Origin: an uncultured Psychrobacter sp.
Lineage (GTDB): Bacteria > Pseudomonadota > Gammaproteobacteria > Pseudomonadales > Moraxellaceae
NCBI RefSeq assembly: GCF_947500265.1
Contig: NZ_CANMRN010000001.1
Location: 372,001-436,000, forward strand
Reading direction: 5' to 3'
Length of the DNA: 64,000 nt
Positions 25,846-35,180 of this stretch are shown piece after piece. Position 1 is the first letter of the stretch, and every line of letters begins with the position of its first letter. The notes beneath the pieces were generated by a model, which was not told where the DNA came from, did no database searches, and saw nothing but the letters and a program-made list of their open reading frames with translations. A program made the position numbers and the translations under genes.

Positions 25846-26472
25846 TTACTTGGTAGATTCGAGCTCCTTGAGGGTATGATACCCACCATGTATACGAGTA
25901 AAAATAGTAACAGCGCAGGCAGTAGCAAAGATACCAGCAAGTAGCACAAAATGCTGAGGCCAAATGCAAAGAGCAATAAAAAGAGCAATAGTTTCGGTGC
26001 CTTCGGTGAGACCATTAAGATAGTAAAAGCTTTTATATTTAAACTGCGGCTTGTCCAATTTAAATTTTTCTGCAGAAATTGCAAAGGCCAAAAAGCTCGA
26101 ACCTGTCCCGATAAATGCCGCTAATAACAACGCACCTGCAATAGCATTTTGTGCAGGGTTGGCCAAAATGAACCCAAGTGGCACAGCGGCATAAAACAAA
26201 AAATCAAGCGTGATATCTAAGTAGCCGCCAGCGCTTGAGCTTTGCTGTGCATAGCGTGCCATTGCGCCATCCAGCCCATCAAAGATACGATTCAATATTA
26301 TCGCTGCCAGTGCGCCATACCATAGCTCAAACGCGAGTAGTGGTAATGCCAACATACCAATCAAAAACCCAGCTACCGTAAGCTGATCAGCCGTAATACC
26401 GAGCTTATGCAATGTCGCTACTATTGGAGTTAGCAGTGGCTTGATCACGGGCGTAATAAACTTGTCTAACAT
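25846..26472 (-). CDS. ynjF: CDP-alcohol phosphatidyltransferase (YnjF-like)
   Basis: The 208-residue integral membrane protein has the family motif DGxxARx8GxxxDxxxD as DGLDGAMARYAQQSSSAGGYLD, then ITLD. The family moves a phosphatidyl group from CDP-diacylglycerol to an alcohol. It follows the YnjD-like ATPase gene on the same strand, as in the E. coli ynjBCDEF order, and this synteny supports the name. The acceptor alcohol is unknown. An AAGGCAG ribosome site precedes the ATG. Confidence 0.75.
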   Translation of the reverse strand: MLDKFITPVIKPLLTPIVATLHKLGITADQLTVAGFLIGMLALPLLAFELWYGALAAIILNRIFDGLDGAMARYAQQSSSAGGYLDITLDFLFYAAVPLGFILANPAQNAIAGALLLAAFIGTGSSFLAFAISAEKFKLDKPQFKYKSFYYLNGLTEGTETIALFIALCIWPQHFVLLAGIFATACAVTIFTRIHGGYHTLKELESTK

Positions 26473-26539: not shown

Positions 26540-27172
26540 CTATTGTCCTACATGAATAACCTTACCATTGGCTGCTTCAGCGTCGCTTTGATCGTGCGTG
26601 ACCATGATGGCAGGCAGCTTATGAGTACGAATTTGCTCAAACACCAATTGCCGCGTATCCATTCTCAGCTGGGTATCGAGCTTGCTAAAGGGCTCATCAA
26701 GTAGTATCGCTTTGGGCTCACTCAGTAGCGTTCGTAGTAGGGCGACACGCGCTTGTTGACCGCCTGATAGGTTATCAGGATGACGATCTCCCATCCCTTC
26801 TAATCCTATTTGAGCTAAAGACTGAGCTATTTTTTCAACTCGCTGTTTTTTATTTCCTTTTGGCATGGCAAAAGCAATGTTGCCCGCGACTGATAGGTGC
26901 GAAAACAGCAGGGCATCTTGATACAACACACCAATACGGCGCAAATGTGCTGGCAGGTGAGTCACGTTTTCATCGTTCAACCAGACAGTACCCGTCGCGG
27001 TAAAATCGCTCGCCAAAGTGCCTGTTAGCCAGTTTAGTAAGCTGGACTTACCACTGCCAGAAGGCCCCATCACGGTTAAAATGTCACCACCAGCGATGTT
27101 TTCATTGATACTCAATAACTGCTCATTCTGACGAAACAGTTGTAAGTCTTTTATCTGTAAAGATGATGGCAT
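26540..27172 (-). CDS. ynjD: ABC transporter ATP-binding protein (YnjD-like)
   Basis: A compact 210-residue ATPase with Walker A GPSGSGKSS (about 36-44), signature LSGGQQARVALLR, Walker B AILLDEP, D-loop SKLD and the switch His in VTHDQSDAEA. It would drive the permease encoded just upstream. An AGGG site precedes the ATG. It is close to thiamine/sulfate-type import ATPases, and the substrate is not known. Confidence 0.85.
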   Translation of the reverse strand: MPSSLQIKDLQLFRQNEQLLSINENIAGGDILTVMGPSGSGKSSLLNWLTGTLASDFTATGTVWLNDENVTHLPAHLRRIGVLYQDALLFSHLSVAGNIAFAMPKGNKKQRVEKIAQSLAQIGLEGMGDRHPDNLSGGQQARVALLRTLLSEPKAILLDEPFSKLDTQLRMDTRQLVFEQIRTHKLPAIMVTHDQSDAEAANGKVIHVGQ

Positions 27173-27251: not shown

Positions 27252-29015
27252 CTATCGAGTGCCATTTCTAAAAAAGTATTTGGGTAGCATCCAAGCCAAT
27301 ATAAAACCGATGAGCGGTAGCGCCATTTGCATAATGGCATAGACAGCACTGGTGCGCCTACTGGCTCCATTCGCCAGTGTCACTGCTTCCGTCGTAATAG
27401 TGGCAATACGTCCGCCGCCCGCCAATAGAGTTGGCAAGTACTGGCCAAAGCTGATCGCTAGACCGAGTGCTATAGCAATCAAAATAGGGGCAAATAATTG
27501 CGGCAGTTTTATCTGAAAAAACACTTTAATGGGTGCAGCACCAAGGCTGGCGGCCACATGAGCAAAACGTGAGTCTAAGCGTCGATAGCTACTGGCCAGT
27601 GATAAAAACACGTACGGCAGCACGAATAAAAGATGCGCAAAAGCCACGTTAAAAAATGCTGACTGATGATTGGCCAACTGCTGTAACCATACTAAGCCAA
27701 ACAGAAACGCAATACTTGGCACCAAGAGCGGTAAGTAAATAATAAAGCTGGTGCAGTGTGACAGCGGCTTAGCACTCAGTTGCTCAGCTTCCAAGCATAA
27801 CAAAGTCAGAAAAACAGCAAAGGCAGTACTGACGGCACCAATGGTAAGTGTATTGACCAGTGGTGTGCTCATTTGGGTAAAGGCACTTTGAAAATGTAAT
27901 AGCACGAACTGCTCTGGTAGCATCGCCGGAAACCGCCAAAACCCTGCAAATGCCCATAAAACAAGGCCAGCGAGTGACATGAGCATAAAACCAATCACGC
28001 CTACGGTAAGTATAGCGGTGACTTTTTGCCAAATAGCATCTGCATAACGACGTTTGCCATTAACTGATGAAACATTCAATATTGCCTTGATAGTTTTTTC
28101 GCTGCCCAGCCAAAAGGCGACTAAACCTGCTGTCAGTACGAGTTGTAATAATGCGCCTGCTGATGCTTTGATACGCAATGTCAGGTCAACATCGTTGAAC
28201 CATTGTATGATAGAGACAGCAAGCGTTGGCGGTGTGTTAGGGCCCAGTATCAACGGCATCTCAACGCTCGCACTGGCATAGGCCAACACGGCCAAAATCG
28301 GTAAACGCAGAAAAGGATATAACAGGGGCAAGACCGCCTTAAAAAAAGCAGTAATTGGGTAATAACCAAGATTGAGTGCAACGGTATACTGTTGACGCAA
28401 TTTTTTGCCAAGTTCAGGCTGAGAAAGTGCGCCCAGTGCCATTAATAATAAAAACGGCAGCTCCTTTAATGTTAAACCCAAGATGATACTGATACCGTAT
28501 GGATCATGTGGAAACATACCATCGGGTGCCATCTCCCAACCAGTTAGCCAAGGAGAGATGAGCCGTGCAAACATGCCTGACGGCGCAATCAAAAATCCAA
28601 CGGCAATGGCTGCAGCTGCATGAGGAATGACCAAGATAGGGCTTAGTAAGTGCTCAATACGCTGCAACCAAACACTGTTAAAAAACGCGGCCAATATCAT
28701 CAGGGCAATAACAAAAGCAAGTAGGGTGCTGACAAGTCCTGTAGCCAGGCTTAATGCAGCCATCTGCGTGATGCCAGGCGTTTGCCACAGGTCTATAAAC
28801 CCTTGCAGATTCAAGGTCGTCTTTTCTAGGGCAGGAAGCCAGCTCAGAGCAGGCAACAGTACACAGATGAGGCCACAGAGTACGGGTAATATTAATATGA
28901 GAATTAAGAGTTTGGGGCTAAAAGACACGATACGCGTAAACAGGTCTTTTTTCTCAAGTGTAATAGGTCTAGGGCTATCACCTTTTTTCGTTATTTTATC
29001 AAAACCTTGGCTCAT
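27252..29015 (-). CDS. ynjC: ABC transporter permease, fused double unit (YnjC-like)
   Basis: About 587 residues with some twelve membrane segments, made of two binding-protein-dependent permease units in tandem. EAA-like loops lie near LRQQYTVALNLG and AASLGAAPIKVFF. An earlier in-frame ATG at 29066 would overlap ynjB by more than 50 bases. The ATG at 29015 overlaps the ynjB stop by four bases (ATGA) and is the likely start, giving translational coupling. Confidence 0.85.
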   Translation of the reverse strand: MSQGFDKITKKGDSPRPITLEKKDLFTRIVSFSPKLLILILILPVLCGLICVLLPALSWLPALEKTTLNLQGFIDLWQTPGITQMAALSLATGLVSTLLAFVIALMILAAFFNSVWLQRIEHLLSPILVIPHAAAAIAVGFLIAPSGMFARLISPWLTGWEMAPDGMFPHDPYGISIILGLTLKELPFLLLMALGALSQPELGKKLRQQYTVALNLGYYPITAFFKAVLPLLYPFLRLPILAVLAYASASVEMPLILGPNTPPTLAVSIIQWFNDVDLTLRIKASAGALLQLVLTAGLVAFWLGSEKTIKAILNVSSVNGKRRYADAIWQKVTAILTVGVIGFMLMSLAGLVLWAFAGFWRFPAMLPEQFVLLHFQSAFTQMSTPLVNTLTIGAVSTAFAVFLTLLCLEAEQLSAKPLSHCTSFIIYLPLLVPSIAFLFGLVWLQQLANHQSAFFNVAFAHLLFVLPYVFLSLASSYRRLDSRFAHVAASLGAAPIKVFFQIKLPQLFAPILIAIALGLAISFGQYLPTLLAGGGRIATITTEAVTLANGASRRTSAVYAIMQMALPLIGFILAWMLPKYFFRNGTR

Positions 29016-30310
29016 GGACTCACCCCATAACGTGCTTGCCAGCCTTGCTGGATGGCCTCTACCCAACTTGGATGCGGCTCGCTTACCGTGCGTTTGACAC
29101 TATTAAAGGGCAGGGCGCTTGGATGGGGCTGCTTGGTTTTGAATAATGCTTGTTGTGCAGGGCTAAGTGTAGATTGAACCAGTACGCTTTTGTCACCCCA
29201 TACCGAAGGGGTTTGTTTTTTTGCTTGGGCTTCTGGACTCATCAAAAAGTTGGCTACTAATTGTGCCGCCTGAGGATGGCTAGCGTTATAAGGGATAGCA
29301 ACAAAATGAGTATTGCTTAAGCTGCCGTCACTCATGGCATAGCTGCGAATGCTCTGGGGTAAGTCATAGCGCTGCACGGCTGCAGGAACTTCTGGTGCTG
29401 AAAAGGTAAAGGCGAGACTCAGCTCCGTATCATCGACCAAGCGCCGCATCTGCGCACCTGTCTGCACGAACTGCTCGCCATTACGCCATAAGGTTGGATG
29501 AAAGTCATCCAAAAATGCCCATAGCGGATCTAATACGAGCGCGGTGTTTTCTGTGGTGGCAGGCAAGTTGAGCTGTGCGCTAGTGTTTTTACCCGTTTGA
29601 GCGTCTTGTTGTTCATGTAGCATGACTAAGACGTATTTTAAGAAACTCATACCCAAAAAATCAGGCGGTTTGGGGTAGCTAAAGCGGCCGGGGTTTTGTG
29701 CTGTCCAAGCTGTCAACTCATTTAGAGTCGTTGGTGGCTTACTGGTAGCTAAGCTATCGTAATAAAACGTCAGAGAGGCTTGTCCCCATGGTGCTTCCAT
29801 GCCGTTGGTCGGCACACCAAAGTCGAAATTTACGGTTGGATTATTCTCTGGGTCCGTCAACGCAAAATTGGGCAGCTTGTTTGCCCATTGTTTGAGTAAT
29901 AACGAGTTCTCACTCATGGTGGCAAAGTTAGCACCATTAATCCAGACCAAATCAACACTGCCTTGATCGTCATTATGAGCAGATTTTTCTGCGAGTACCC
30001 GACTGACTGCTTCACTGGTATCGCTCAATTTAACATGGACTAAGTTGACACTATATTTGTCATCGACTTGATCGGCGACCCATTGTAGATAGGCGTTAAT
30101 TTGCGGATCACCGCCCCATGCATAGAAATAAACGTCTTGATTGCTGCCTTGGGCTTCCATCTGCTGCCAAGGTGAGAGGTCTTGGTTAATGTTGGCAGTA
30201 GTAGGTGATGCCGTGCTTGCTGATATACCAATACAAATGCTCATCACCATAGCGTAGGTGCTATAGCGCGTAAGACGTTTGAGCATCGGTAAAGCGGTAA
30301 TAACGTGCAT
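29012..30310 (-). CDS. ynjB: ABC transporter substrate-binding protein (YnjB-like)
   Basis: A 432-residue periplasmic binding protein of the type found with thiamine and sulfate importers. A signal peptide covers about residues 1-40 (hydrophobic core YAMVMSICIGISAST). The mature part starts with WQQMEAQG and DVYFYAWGGDP and carries the FxYxxW-like ligand-pocket features of the family. It is the first gene of the minus-strand ynjBCDF order. A GGAA site precedes the ATG by seven bases. The ligand is not known; polyamine or thiamine analogues are possible from the fold. Confidence 0.8.
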   Translation of the reverse strand: MHVITALPMLKRLTRYSTYAMVMSICIGISASTASPTTANINQDLSPWQQMEAQGSNQDVYFYAWGGDPQINAYLQWVADQVDDKYSVNLVHVKLSDTSEAVSRVLAEKSAHNDDQGSVDLVWINGANFATMSENSLLLKQWANKLPNFALTDPENNPTVNFDFGVPTNGMEAPWGQASLTFYYDSLATSKPPTTLNELTAWTAQNPGRFSYPKPPDFLGMSFLKYVLVMLHEQQDAQTGKNTSAQLNLPATTENTALVLDPLWAFLDDFHPTLWRNGEQFVQTGAQMRRLVDDTELSLAFTFSAPEVPAAVQRYDLPQSIRSYAMSDGSLSNTHFVAIPYNASHPQAAQLVANFLMSPEAQAKKQTPSVWGDKSVLVQSTLSPAQQALFKTKQPHPSALPFNSVKRTVSEPHPSWVEAIQQGWQARYGVSP

Positions 30311-30479: not shown

Positions 30480-32633
30480 CTAACCGCGACGCCAAGTATG
30501 GTATTTCTCTAACCAGCTTAATACGGTCTCAGGCGCATGAGCACGTTTCCACTCACCAGCGGCGTATTTATTGCCTTCTGCCCAAGTAGGGTAGCTATGA
30601 ATAGTACCCAATATTTTATTAAGACCCAGACCATGTTTCATGGCCAGTATAAACTCAGCGATTAGGTCGCCTGCATGTTCAGACACCACCGTAACGCCAA
30701 GTATTTTATCTTTACCTTTTGGCGTGATGACTTTGATAAAGCCTTTAGCCGCGCCATCTGTGATAGCGCGATCCAGCTCTTCAAATTCAAAACGAGTAAT
30801 CTCGTAATCGATGCCTTTATCAATGGCTTCTTGCTCGTTGATACCGACACGAGCGACTTCTGGGTCGATAAACGTAACCCACGGAATGACGCGATAATCT
30901 ACTTTAAACTTTTTCAGATTGCCAAATAAACCATTCACTGCGGCATACCAGCCTTGATGAGCTGCGACATGAGTAAACTGGTATGGGCCAACGATATCGC
31001 CTGCAGCAAAGATATTGGGATATAACGTCTCTAAGTATTCGTTGGTTACGATCGTACGATTGGTTTCGATACCTAGCGCCTCTAAACCATAACCTTCAAG
31101 GCGTGCGCTACGACCAACGGCACAAAGAAGCTCATCATACTCGATATCGATTTCTGTTTCATTGTGTTTGACGATAATGTATTTTTTGCCATCACGCATC
31201 TCGCAGCGCATCGCTTGATGTGAGGTCAAAATATTAACACCGCTATCAGTGAGCGACTGATGAGCAAAGGTAGACACTTCAAGGTCTTCTTTACCCATAA
31301 TGCGATCGCTCATCTCAATTTGCGTCACGTTAGAACCCAGCCGAGCAAAGCTCTGAGCAAGCTCGCTACCGATGGGGCCACCGCCCAGTACTACTAGCTT
31401 CTTAGGTGCTTCTTCTAGCTCGGCAAACTTGGTCCATAACGTGTCACTGGTTACGTAGCCAGTTTCTTCTATACCTGGCAGAGGCGGTACAAATGGACGG
31501 GCGCCCGTGGCGATAACGATGGTGCGCGCTGTTAGGGTTTGCATGCCGCCATCGTTCAATTGAATTTCTACTGTCCACGGGTCAACTAATTTGGCATAGC
31601 CTTTGACCACATCGACGCCCAGATTGGTATAACGCTCAACGCTATCGTGCGGTGCGATATCAGCCACTACTTGCTGTACGCGTGCCATCACTTTTTTGAA
31701 CGAAAACTGCGGTACAGTGTTCTCTAGACCGTAGTTTTCACCATGACGAATTTGATCAGCGATTTTTGCACTTTTGATGATGGCCTTACTAGGTACACAG
31801 CCATAATTTAGACAATCACCGCCCATTTCACCTGCTTCAACCAGTGTGACTTTTGCTTTGACTGCTGCGGCAATATAACTTGTGACTAATCCGCCAGCGC
31901 CTGCACCAATCACAATCATATTGCGATCGAACTTTTTAGGTTTGGTGTGGTTTTTATAAACACGGCGTTTTTTAAACATGTTCAACACTCCTTTTGCTAT
32001 TAATGGGAAGAAACCTAATAACGCAAACGAGACAATTAAGTTGAAAGATAAAATACCCGATAAGCTGTCTATCTGTGCCAGCTGTGTCCCTGCATTGACG
32101 AAGACAAAGGTCCCAGCTAGCATACCGATTTGACTGACCCAGTAGTAAGTCCATGTTTTAATAGACGTCACACCCATCAATAGGTTAATCAAAAAGAATG
32201 GGAATATGGGTACCAGACGTAAGGTAAATAAATAAAATCCACCTTCTTTTTCGACGCCTGCATCAATAGCTGCCAACCGCTCAGGAAAGCGCTGTTTGAT
32301 GGTGTCACGCAGTAAATATCGCGATGCCAAGAAGGCAATGGTAGCACCAATACTCGATGCGAACGATGCTACTAGCAAGCCTTGTACCAAGCCAAATAAA
32401 GCACCAGCGGCTAGCGTTAAAATCGCAGCGCCTGGTAAGGAGAGGGCAGTGACGACGACATATAGTAAGAAAAATCCACCGATAATCAATAGCGGTGACT
32501 GCGCTTTATAGTCATTAAATTGTGCCATCGACCCTTTTAAGCCATCAAGCGTCAATAATTGATTTAGGTCAAAATAAAAAAAACTTGCCGCTAATATCAA
32601 TATCAATAGTATTAAAAATATTCTTTTAATCAT
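30480..32633 (-). CDS. Fusion of TVP38/TMEM64 membrane domain and flavin disulfide reductase
   Basis: About 717 residues. Residues 1-220 are a TVP38/TMEM64 (VTT/DedA-like) membrane domain with five or six segments (GAAILTLAAGALFG and SIGATIAFLASRY). Residues about 235-717 form a class I pyridine nucleotide-disulfide oxidoreductase: FAD motif VIGAGAGGLV, redox Cys pair GGDCLNYGCVPSK, NAD motif VVLGGGPIGSELAQ, and dimer-face HSYPTWAEG. The C-terminal vicinal Cys pair of mercuric reductase is missing, so it is not a classical MerA. The start at 32633 follows a GGA; the frame is also open to 32648. It lies 170 bases upstream of the ynjB start on the same strand. Confidence 0.8.
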   Translation of the reverse strand: MIKRIFLILLILILAASFFYFDLNQLLTLDGLKGSMAQFNDYKAQSPLLIIGGFFLLYVVVTALSLPGAAILTLAAGALFGLVQGLLVASFASSIGATIAFLASRYLLRDTIKQRFPERLAAIDAGVEKEGGFYLFTLRLVPIFPFFLINLLMGVTSIKTWTYYWVSQIGMLAGTFVFVNAGTQLAQIDSLSGILSFNLIVSFALLGFFPLIAKGVLNMFKKRRVYKNHTKPKKFDRNMIVIGAGAGGLVTSYIAAAVKAKVTLVEAGEMGGDCLNYGCVPSKAIIKSAKIADQIRHGENYGLENTVPQFSFKKVMARVQQVVADIAPHDSVERYTNLGVDVVKGYAKLVDPWTVEIQLNDGGMQTLTARTIVIATGARPFVPPLPGIEETGYVTSDTLWTKFAELEEAPKKLVVLGGGPIGSELAQSFARLGSNVTQIEMSDRIMGKEDLEVSTFAHQSLTDSGVNILTSHQAMRCEMRDGKKYIIVKHNETEIDIEYDELLCAVGRSARLEGYGLEALGIETNRTIVTNEYLETLYPNIFAAGDIVGPYQFTHVAAHQGWYAAVNGLFGNLKKFKVDYRVIPWVTFIDPEVARVGINEQEAIDKGIDYEITRFEFEELDRAITDGAAKGFIKVITPKGKDKILGVTVVSEHAGDLIAEFILAMKHGLGLNKILGTIHSYPTWAEGNKYAAGEWKRAHAPETVLSWLEKYHTWRRG

Positions 32634-32862
32634 GAAAAATCCGGCCAAATAAGGGAGCGAAGGCTAAAATCGTAGTTATTGCTCAAACAGTAGAACACTC
32701 ATCCCTGAGTAACCCTGTTTGAGTAATGGTGGCGATCAAATCGAATCGTCTGAATCGCCTAACCACGATAAAAAGTTTAAGTCGGTAGTCTTAATAGTAT
32801 ATACATTGTGTCTTGTTGTCTGATATTTATACTAGGGGATCAATAAGCACTGCTATCGACGT

Positions 32863-33267
32863 TTATACTGGGAGATTATTTTTACCCAAGGTTAAGGTGT
32901 CATAATCTCTCATTAAGAAAAGCGCTATACAGGCTGCCAGCATTGGCCATGCAGCAAAAAACAGTAAGTTGTCAAAAGGCGTGAGGTAGAGACCAAAGGA
33001 TGCAAAAGTAGAGGCTGCGTGTAGCAATAGAATGATGCCGTATGTCCACTTTTTGAATAAACCCATTACGAACGAGAAGATCAGTATGATTTGTAAGCTA
33101 CCAATCACGTATACGATACTGGTGCCTAAGCCTTCTAATGCATAAAATTGAGAAAACACATTGGCGGTGTGGTCAGGATTGACAAATTTGTCGAGCGTCC
33201 AAAAAAAGAACACAATGAAGACACCAAGGCGAAGGAATAATAGTGAGAGTGGTAGGTGTTTTGGCAT
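32863..33267 (-). CDS. DoxX-like small membrane protein
   Basis: A 134-residue protein with four membrane segments in the DoxX/DoxD arrangement, starting LSLLFLRLGVFIVFFFWTLDKF and with a GLFKKW link between segments two and three. Family members take part in respiratory or membrane redox functions, but no specific role is known here. It is co-directional with the fusion gene downstream, 230 bases away, so it may be separate. Confidence 0.55.
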   Translation of the reverse strand: MPKHLPLSLLFLRLGVFIVFFFWTLDKFVNPDHTANVFSQFYALEGLGTSIVYVIGSLQIILIFSFVMGLFKKWTYGIILLLHAASTFASFGLYLTPFDNLLFFAAWPMLAACIALFLMRDYDTLTLGKNNLPV

Positions 33268-33707: not shown

Positions 33708-35180
33708 CTAAAAATTGGTAAACTCAAGACCAATACCAGCACCTACATCAGTTGACTGTTTGTTCGAATCTAGTGCCCAGACTCGGCTAGAAATGAGCGT
33801 TTTTGGATTCATTTGATGCTCCCAAGCTATATCAGCTACTTTCAAAGTTTCTGGCTCAGGAAAAGCTTGGTTGTCACTCTCATTCGATTGATTAACCTTA
33901 GCATATTGTAGCTTAGTAGAGATAAAGTTTTGGTTATCTACCCAAAGCTTACCACCAAGCGCCACACTTTCGGCGTCACCACCCAATCCATATCCTAGCG
34001 GATAACCATGTTGATAATAACCATCTGTATAGAGAAAGTGATCATAGGATATGCCGCGTGCTTCACCGCTAGAACGAGTATCAGTATATTCAGCATATAA
34101 TTGATAAGGCAGCGCATTTATACTTGAAGCATAGTCTATACCTGCTAAATACATATTTTTGGCAGGTAAGCCACCAGCTTCATCTTCACCGATATACTGT
34201 GCATAAATACCAGTCGGTACACCTACTAGTGGCATTAAGTTAACGCGAGCATCAAACCCTCCTAGTTGGTTGGCAGGATCTTGATCAGTATTACCAGAAG
34301 TAGTATCGTTGTCTCTTGTTCCTAACAGAGCATCACCAAATGAGCTAAAGCTCTCAGGCCGTCCTTCTCCCCCCCACATAAAAGTACGAGAAGCTCCGAC
34401 TTCTAACCAAGGCCATGGACTAGCAGTAAGACGCGCACCAAAAAGTTTAGCATCTGGTACCGCTTCATAATCGTCCAACTGGCCTGCAAATAATTGATAC
34501 TGCCAAGGACCTACCCAAGATAAATAGGGAGAGGTTGGCACATTTTGCTCATCACGCTGTATAGTCAAACCTACGATAGGAAGACTTGCATCTCCCCGAA
34601 TCAGGCTACCATCATGTCCAGGGCCCCACCAAGTTGGAATTTGTCCAGCTATTAGCCATTGATTAGCAAATTTACCTGCTATATAAGAGCCTTCAAAACT
34701 CACATCGTCATTATTTATTAGGTCATCATTTTTAAGGTTGGCCTGTAGATTGAGTTCCCAATCTTCCTCACTAATACCAGCTTGTAAACTAGCCTGTACT
34801 GTAGACATTTTATTATCAGCAAAAGTTTGTGGTAAACGTTGTCTATCAGTTTGAGCGTATAGACCAACTTGTGCGTTAACAAGCGATTTAGGTTTTTGCC
34901 CTAATGTAAGTTGTATTGACTGTATTATTTGCTGTTGTTCTGAAGTTTTTACTTTAGCTAGACTAAGTACGCGCTTGATCTCATTTGCAGTTAATGGCCA
35001 TGTACTAGTACTTATTTGAATAACACCTTGTGAGTTCAACCAGTTCAGTTCTGATTTTAAGCTCATATCATTGACATATATGTTTTGAGCAGTAGCGTAT
35101 GTACTTACTATGCCAAAACTCAATAAAATGCTTATTACTTTTAAATGATGTAAGCGGTGGTAGGGAGGTTTTTTTGTCAT
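33708..35180 (-). CDS. wzi: Capsule assembly protein, Wzi family
   Basis: The 490-residue protein has a signal peptide (hydrophobic core VISILLSFGIVSTYATA), then a predicted outer-membrane beta-barrel rich in aromatic residues (GQIPTWWGPGHDGSL, AGIDYAS). This matches the Wzi/YjbH-like capsule assembly family, which helps hold capsule on the cell surface. It is the last gene of the capsule operon, after the initiating sugar transferase, and is followed by the terminator. Confidence 0.8.
   Translation of the reverse strand: MTKKPPYHRLHHLKVISILLSFGIVSTYATAQNIYVNDMSLKSELNWLNSQGVIQISTSTWPLTANEIKRVLSLAKVKTSEQQQIIQSIQLTLGQKPKSLVNAQVGLYAQTDRQRLPQTFADNKMSTVQASLQAGISEEDWELNLQANLKNDDLINNDDVSFEGSYIAGKFANQWLIAGQIPTWWGPGHDGSLIRGDASLPIVGLTIQRDEQNVPTSPYLSWVGPWQYQLFAGQLDDYEAVPDAKLFGARLTASPWPWLEVGASRTFMWGGEGRPESFSSFGDALLGTRDNDTTSGNTDQDPANQLGGFDARVNLMPLVGVPTGIYAQYIGEDEAGGLPAKNMYLAGIDYASSINALPYQLYAEYTDTRSSGEARGISYDHFLYTDGYYQHGYPLGYGLGGDAESVALGGKLWVDNQNFISTKLQYAKVNQSNESDNQAFPEPETLKVADIAWEHQMNPKTLISSRVWALDSNKQSTDVGAGIGLEFTNF

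Follow-up and report, generated by a model that had tools for sequence, protein, structure and literature searches.

The membrane proteins of COG0398 have been proposed as phospholipid scramblases, a function that so far is only a proposal, and reductase domains are named as their most common fusion partners by Todor et al. 2023 (PMC10127716). The same text describes the fusion of COG0398 with PF07992 and PF02852, and NCBI names such a protein bifunctional TVP38/TMEM64 family protein/FAD-dependent oxidoreductase. In Escherichia coli, COG0398 genes stand in the row ydjX-ydjY-ydjZ-ynjA-ynjB-ynjC-ynjD-ynjE, with ynjF on the opposite strand; the YnjBCD importer and the YnjF lipid enzyme of this cluster are orphans. 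Here we analyse a fusion of this kind encoded beside ynj genes in a stretch of 64,000 nucleotides (the window) from an uncultured Psychrobacter sp. (NCBI RefSeq assembly GCF_947500265.1, contig NZ_CANMRN010000001.1, positions 372,001 to 436,000). Relatives of this fusion are associated with Ynj genes and with arsenosugar genes, and among the genomes that carry them these two branches are nearly mutually exclusive.

Several steps of the arsenosugar branch have been described. In oxo-arsenosugar biosynthesis a radical S-adenosylmethionine (SAM) enzyme adenosylates arsenic (PMC12159101), and ArsS and ArsM of Synechocystis catalyse the first steps (PMC8552651). Seaweeds contain arsenosugars, of which the glycerol form has been studied (PMC6656958), and plankton contain arsenosugar phospholipids (PMC7345539).

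The fusion and its two genomic branches

A preliminary description of the window had placed a TVP38 domain and a class I disulfide reductase fold in one protein beside the Ynj importer, and had seen in this neighbourhood a single, still undescribed redox-transport system. The architecture was borne out by Pfam and BLASTP, as one frame of 717 amino acids holds both parts. That the architecture itself is undescribed was rejected, since the fusion is in print and has its NCBI name; its function is indeed undescribed. A chance open reading frame (ORF) was likewise rejected, on the Pfam domains and on 80 relatives that were all scored as fusions.

These 80 are the best of 151 places confirmed in a genome scan (68-99% identity, all named), a set biased towards close relatives of the window's fusion; the nearest of them mark the window's genome as Psychrobacter-like. 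Carriers, defined by a relative at E ≤ 1e-120, were scored in an evenly drawn set of 369 gammaproteobacterial genomes (the class sample, to which counts refer unless stated otherwise). This sample held 126 carriers with 127 places, as one genome (G250) has two. Neighbouring genes were counted by six-frame profile searches of the stretches around 126 places, the window's own excluded, each reaching ~8.8 kb to either side and many cut by contig ends. The fused form was found at 102 of these places and the reductase alone at 23 (in 14 cases accompanied by an unfused VTT gene within the stretch), while one was a fragment. The threshold undercounts carriers, because five of ten ArsS loci from genomes that failed it (L243-L252) hold VTT and reductase genes. 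A phylum sample of 160 genomes overlaps the class sample in some genomes.

Genes for arsenosugar metabolism, overlooked in the preliminary description, are the commoner partners of the fusion. ArsS was present in 97 of 126 carriers versus 86 of 243 non-carriers (odds ratio (OR) 6.1, p 2.7e-14), and TIGR04283 in 106 of 126 versus 86 of 243 (OR 9.7, p 6.3e-20). At least one of ArsS, ArsM, TIGR04282 and TIGR04283 lay within the stretch at 26 of 126 places. ArsS alone did so at 19, where a rough uniform-placement model predicts ~0.6, and DUF547 at 16. A grouping of neighbours that used no labels (1,851 ORFs of 120 loci, linkage at three cut-offs) returned ArsS-like radical SAM proteins as the commonest family after the fusion at every cut-off, with 18 loci. 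DUF547 (up to 16 loci) and ArsM-like methyltransferases (up to 13) were among the next families; separate VTT proteins were found at 11 loci and a group of ATP-binding cassette (ABC) ATPases at 13 with the loosest cut-off. NCBIfam models confirmed examples of these families as ArsS (472.5 bits, cut-off 300) and as the arsenosugar glycosyltransferases TIGR04282 and TIGR04283, and the ArsM example matched arsenite methyltransferase families below their cut-offs.

Individual loci illustrate this branch. An Acinetobacter portensis plasmid (L229) has the order arsS-fusion-DUF547-TIGR04283-TIGR04282-methyltransferase-phosphate transporter, with mtnP on the opposite strand; the plasmid is named for NDM-1. 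In G471, a phylum-sample genome of the same family as the window's, ArsS begins 114 bp from the fusion match. A gene like that for 5'-methylthioadenosine phosphorylase (MTAP) was found by profile search at only three ArsS loci. At the window locus ArsS (TIGR04167) has no match, and the only one in the genome lies ~266 kb away, in a cassette of ArsS-DUF547-TIGR04283-TIGR04282-ArsM with an MTAP-like gene opposite (L207, G000:C1:126400-146300).

The link to Ynj genes also exceeds chance. In the class sample, 12 of the 14 genomes with YnjB carry a relative of the fusion, which corresponds to YnjB in 12 of 126 carriers versus two of 243 non-carriers (OR 12.7, p 7.9e-5). Leaving aside the window's genome, five of 11 genomes with both have them linked (expected ~0.05, again under uniform placement), and in the phylum sample the fusion is present in seven of 12 genomes with YnjB (p 0.002). 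Among the best 80 of 151 loci, all fused, ynjB was found at 69 and a YnjF-like enzyme at 66; the stretches also hold FA_hydroxylase/sterol-desaturase-like proteins (52), DUF547 (44) and TonB receptors (33). The 11 loci without ynjB comprise four from Vibrio and four from Marinomonas, L017, where the contig stops ~0.3 kb past the fusion, L083, where ArsS lies 4 bp upstream of the fusion, and L070. The latter encodes a Psychrobacter fusion (83% identical) followed not by ynjB but by a large membrane protein on the opposite strand, with 2.4 kb to the contig end.

What did not hold is that this neighbourhood defines one Ynj redox-transport system in general. Only five of 126 places had ynjB or ynjC in the stretch, the other 121 having neither within ~9 kb (some cut by contig ends), and 114 of 126 carriers lacked YnjB altogether. 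The general claim fails because the fusion is mostly found away from ynj genes, which the preliminary description had itself regarded as grounds for refuting it.

Among carriers, the two branches rarely coincide. YnjB was found in one of 97 carriers with ArsS versus 11 of 29 without it (p 1.8e-7), the single genome with both being that of the window. Scored against the absence of both ArsS and TIGR04283, YnjB was found in nine of 16 carriers versus three of 110 others (p 1.3e-7). When each of 79 families was represented by a single genome, in 500 draws, the YnjB-ArsS exclusion retained a p of at most 0.0021, and it recurred among carriers of the phylum sample (one of 19 with ArsS versus six of 12 without, p 0.007). 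A hybrid locus in genome G402 (L171) has ynjB-ynjC-ynjD-TIGR04283-TIGR04282-fusion on one strand, and this genome has no ArsS match. As an exception of another kind, genome G122 has ArsS and two copies of YnjB with a TonB receptor and DUF547 (L240, L241); these copies have no fusion at the cut used and no YnjF-like gene nearby.

Among the loci fetched, YnjF-like enzymes are confined to the Ynj branch. They occur at 82 of 89 distinct ynjB loci (16 of 20 when the named set is left aside) versus none of 42 distinct ArsS loci, a partition that covers YnjF-like enzymes only, because loci of the Ynj type and YnjF of E. coli were the source of the CDP-alcohol profile. Before removal of the duplicates L090/L222, L091/L220 and L143/L215, the counts were 83 of 90 and none of 44. 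We found no paper that joins the fusion or Ynj with arsenosugars in the literature searched, which was mostly open-access text without supplements and does not prove absence. Within that literature, the link to arsenosugar genes, the mutual exclusion of YnjB and ArsS and the partition of YnjF are apparently new.

On a tree of 153 reductase sequences, with the hybrid G402 labelled as ynj, copies linked to ynj are spread over 11 separate clades. This requires 10 changes versus at least 17 in 100 shuffles; ars-linked copies require 20 (shuffles at least 26), and the fused and the split form replace each other in 16 changes. Because the two forms interchange, the VTT and reductase parts appear to be functionally coupled. 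One locus (G084) reads ynjC-ynjD-YnjF-VTT-reductase-FA_hydroxylase, with VTT and reductase unfused. Several copies are on plasmids. In Rhodobacterales these have the order fusion-YnjF-ynjB-ynjC-ynjD, and a Citrobacter conjugative plasmid (L230) has DUF2282-DUF692-DoxX-fusion-FAD oxidoreductase-ynjBCD-CDP-alcohol enzyme. Among the 40 of 90 records listed, plasmids of Klebsiella, Salmonella, Providencia and E. coli hold similar copies at 53% identity, and several of these plasmids come from milk or cattle. A Sphingopyxis plasmid (L232) combines the fusion with a TonB receptor, a nucleoside transporter, a CDP-alcohol enzyme and a peroxidase-related gene. The nucleoside transporter takes the position that YnjBCD has elsewhere, which hints that the cargo is perhaps nucleoside-like. 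Together with the hybrid of G402, the G084, Rhodobacterales and Sphingopyxis loci bridge the two branches. Identity to the window's fusion is ~90% for some fusions of Psychrobacter and Pseudoalteromonas (see L021 and L022) but only ~84% for another Psychrobacter group; this pattern suggests transfer between cold-marine genera.

Active site and fold of the fusion

The C-terminal part of the fusion (residues ~236-717) has the fold of FAD/NAD(P)H class I reductases, with Pyr_redox_2 at residues 238-561 (E 2.4e-60) and Pyr_redox_dim at 583-689 (E 6.7e-30). We counted active-site residues in an alignment of 154 rows, taking as denominator the rows with a residue at the position. The redox CxxxxC pair, Cys274 and Cys279, is kept in 153 of 153 rows, as is Lys283. 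Tyr681 occupies the position of the catalytic His of disulfide reductases in 152 of 152 rows, and Glu686 is present in 146 of 152. Where the lipoamide dehydrogenase (LPD) 1ebd reads ihaHPT, the fusion reads ihsYPT, and mercuric reductases also have Tyr there (alignments to 5x1y, 4k8d and 1ebd). Glu440, at the end of the second strand of the NAD-binding fold, is found in 106 of 154 rows and, by the usual rules for this fold, hints at a preference for NADH.

Mercuric reductases are the nearest solved structures by sequence. Membership of MerA was nonetheless rejected. The TIGR02053 score is 391.1 bits versus a cut-off of 454.45, and the C-terminal vicinal Cys pair is missing, as the preliminary description had stated: CC occurs in the tail in none of 154 rows, and any Cys in five. 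In addition, the second active-site Tyr of MerA, which we take to be residue 100 of the Tn501 core as counted from the alignment, falls at Val332. This residue sits inside a conserved P-H-D-S-x-E-R stretch in which P328, D330, S331 and R334 are invariant in 64 aligned fusions. Tyr393 (YxTS) was dropped as a candidate for that Tyr, since the alignment assigns the position to Val332 and only 125 of 154 rows keep Tyr393. Membership of LPD or glutathione reductase was rejected as well, with YPT in place of HPT, a TIGR01350 score of 395.7 versus 408.8 bits and a score below the glutathione-reductase model cut-off. With the Cys pair kept, His changed to Tyr and features of MerA missing, the fusion therefore belongs neither to the canonical disulfide reductases nor to MerA. 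Our best chemical guess from these residues is a metal(loid)-type reductase.

The N-terminal part resembles COG0398 proteins. Pfam places VTT_dom at residues 70-183 (E 4.9e-24), and the domain passes the PF09335 cut-off (85.6 versus 33.9 bits). It is 30% identical to E. coli YdjX over 188 residues (E 1.4e-19) and 29% to YdjZ, the two COG0398 members with which it was compared. An AlphaFold2 model of the fusion, built with 64 sequences, has a mean predicted local distance difference test (pLDDT) score of 87.1. Its sole segment of at least three residues below 50 is the Tyr681 loop (residues 677-683). We expect this loop at the dimer face in this fold class, so the monomer model cannot place it. 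Foldseek with the model gave reductases alone among the matches listed and taught us nothing on the VTT domain.

No VTT/DedA domain other than that of the fusion was found in the window's genome. This genome also encodes a DUF368/VCA0040-like protein (G000:C10:47761-48474), of an alternative undecaprenyl-phosphate flippase family, which may account for the absence of other DedA proteins.

The Ynj unit of the window

In the window, the fusion is first in a minus-strand unit, followed by ynjB, ynjC, ynjD and ynjF (Table 1), which face a TetR gene. The fusion and ynjB are 169 bp apart, ynjB and ynjC overlap, and 79 and 67 bp separate ynjC from ynjD and ynjD from ynjF. An alternative start of the fusion is a TTG at 32648. 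The unit encodes a YnjBCD transporter, with YnjB above its model cut-off and ynjC and ynjD adjacent and co-directional; ynjF had gone unmentioned in the preliminary description. Counts of promoter-like sites (13 versus a shuffle mean of 14.6) and terminator-like sites (13 versus 8.0, standard deviation 3.1) were uninformative.

Table 1. Genes of the fusion-ynj region, with positions counted from the first nucleotide of the window.
Feature	Position	Strand	Evidence
Fusion protein, 717 aa	30480..32633	minus	single open frame from ATG; Pfam domains
ynjB, ABC substrate-binding protein	29012..30310	minus	NF008633, 505.8 bits vs 203; 40% identity to E. coli YnjB (BLASTP)
ynjC, ABC permease	27252..29066	minus	BPD_transp_1; 31% identity to E. 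coli YnjC (BLASTP)
ynjD, ABC ATPase	26540..27172	minus	ABC_tran; 46% identity to E. coli YnjD (BLASTP)
ynjF, CDP-alcohol phosphatidyltransferase	25846..26472	minus	PF01066, 41 bits vs 22; 58% identity to E. coli YnjF (BLASTP)
Small DoxX/MauE-like membrane protein	32863..33267	minus, upstream of fusion	MauE, 21.9 bits, below cut-off 27

The family of YnjF joins alcohols to CDP-activated lipids. The stretch DGLDGAMAR...GGYLDITLD in YnjF fits what we take to be the catalytic motif of CDP-alcohol enzymes. Its best matches of solved structure, at E 3e-5 and weaker, are inositol-phosphate, phosphatidylinositol and phosphatidylserine synthases and an archaeal CDP-alcohol phosphotransferase. The YnjB model (pLDDT 88.3) has a fold common to many proteins that bind sugars, sugar phosphates, polyamines or metals. 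In a fold search, Z was 25.5-28.1 among the matches listed, which fits sugars, sugar phosphates, dinucleotides or glycerophosphodiesters and is not decisive. A search of the YnjB profile against PDB sequences gave one weak, uninformative match (E 0.00075).

Relatives of the DoxX/MauE-like gene stand upstream of the fusion on the same strand in many Psychrobacter loci, and its membership of the fusion-ynj unit is possible but unproven. At 33708-35180 a Wzi-like capsule assembly protein (Pfam) is encoded, followed on the minus strand by an apparent polysaccharide locus that was read from translations only.

Proposed role and comparison with known systems

We tentatively propose, with a confidence a little short of even, that the fusion is a membrane-anchored flavoprotein, a reductase of a separate type close to the metal reductases and joined to a lipid-handling domain, and that it serves organoarsenical (arsenosugar) metabolism, fed either by synthesis or by Ynj import. 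Arsenic as the element is suggested by the neighbouring genes; the reaction, the role of VTT, the cargo of Ynj and the product of YnjF are likewise inferred. Its most likely reaction would take place at the inner membrane, on the arsenic of an arsenosugar or an arsenosugar-lipid, which the fusion would reduce or keep in the reduced state. One supply would be de novo, through ArsM, ArsS, an MTAP-like enzyme, TIGR04282 and TIGR04283. Judging from the enzyme classes, the later steps would be phosphorolysis by the MTAP-like enzyme, activation by the CofC-like TIGR04282 and transfer by TIGR04283. The other supply would be uptake, in which YnjBCD imports an alcohol and YnjF couples this to a phosphatidyl group, so that the head group becomes a phospholipid. 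The scramblase-type VTT domain, the chemistry of the YnjF family and the known arsenosugar phospholipids together suggest a system that acts on lipids and carries out arsenic redox chemistry at the membrane, supplied by two routes.

A more specific version, which we consider unlikely, casts the Ynj operon as arsenosugar salvage. Here a TonB receptor and YnjBCD would import glycerol-arsenosugar or a close organoarsenical, and YnjF with CDP-diacylglycerol would form an arsenosugar phospholipid. The VTT-reductase would flip and reduce this lipid, and the ArsM/ArsS/TIGR04282/TIGR04283 cassette would make the same lipid de novo.

Several points weigh against the arsenosugar proposal. The stretch lacks all four arsenosugar markers at 100 of the 126 places of the class sample, and the fusion-ArsS association did not replicate in the phylum sample, where it was not significant (19 of 31 versus 59 of 129, p 0.16). 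The arsenosugar role of TIGR04282 and TIGR04283 is that of their NCBI names, which possibly rest in part on association. The window's own genome breaks the exclusion by having both YnjB and ArsS. The 89 ynjB loci come mostly from close relatives, and the Ynj-derived profile could miss CDP-alcohol enzymes of unrelated type at ArsS loci. Val332 takes the place of the second Tyr of MerA. Arsenosugar production by Psychrobacter or E. coli was not found in the literature consulted. Finally, some fusion loci sit in redox or metal-stress surroundings instead.

These last loci lead to the best-surviving alternative, which we think rather improbable. The fusion may be a membrane-anchored general reductase for metal or oxidant stress (RclA-/MerA-like; Cu(II), Hg(II), hypochlorite), often under an extracytoplasmic function sigma factor, with arsenosugar genes merely in the same regulon. 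Consistent with this, sigma-70-family genes occur at 13 of 126 places, DUF692, DUF2282 and DoxX surround the fusion on Citrobacter and Burkholderia glumae plasmids (the latter also with CcdA and thioredoxin genes), and the closest solved structures are mercuric reductases. Such genes are nevertheless rarer neighbours than the four arsenosugar markers, DUF692 being near only three of 126 places, and this alternative explains neither why YnjB and ArsS exclude each other nor why lipid genes (CDP-alcohol transferase, FA_hydroxylase) recur. The view of the preliminary description, by which the fusion and YnjBCD form one redox-transport system for a thiol or metal without any link to arsenic, seems more doubtful still. 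It would account for the 12 of 14 YnjB genomes with the fusion or reductase, the 11 ynj-linked clades and ynjB near 69 of the best 80 of 151 fusions, but not for the 114 carriers without YnjB, nor for arsenosugar genes in 26 stretches versus ynj in five, with one holding both. A lipid scramblase tuned by a thiol-disulfide (lipoamide/glutathione-type) reductase and tied to aerobic metabolism, a line suggested in PMC10127716 from the resemblance of COG0398 to eukaryotic scramblases and its frequent reductase fusions, would suit the interchange of fused and split forms, yet is very unlikely given the invariant Tyr in place of the catalytic His and the scores below both disulfide-reductase cut-offs.

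If the arsenosugar proposal is right, the exclusion pattern would tie the fusion, the orphan YnjBCD importer and the orphan YnjF to a defined chemistry, that of organoarsenicals and arsenolipids. It would also name enzymes of arsenolipid handling, in a field where knowledge of metabolism is called limited (PMC7345539).

Compared with described systems, the window protein is a member of the fusion class of Todor et al. 2023 and shares its domain architecture; neither the accessible text of that paper nor the NCBI name gives the class a function, an active-site analysis or an arsenosugar or Ynj link. With MerA of Tn501 and Lysinibacillus sphaericus it has in common the fold, the redox Cys pair and the Tyr that replaces the catalytic His. 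Unlike MerA, it has no C-terminal Cys pair, a Val at the second Tyr, an N-terminal membrane domain and, in the Pfam scan, no HMA domain. The E. coli cluster ydjXYZ-ynjABCDE-ynjF resembles the window in bringing together COG0398 VTT proteins, YnjBCD and YnjF, and differs in having two unfused VTT genes, ydjY, ynjA and ynjE, and no reductase. Were the salvage version true, the YnjBCD-YnjF of E. coli would be a stripped-down organoarsenical-lipid system. Arsenosugar cassettes such as that of Acinetobacter portensis include the same kind of fusion as one of their genes, whereas the cassette of the window's genome is not local to its fusion. Both types of locus, arsenosugar and Ynj, share the VTT-reductase together with DUF547 and sterol-desaturase/FA_hydroxylase genes.

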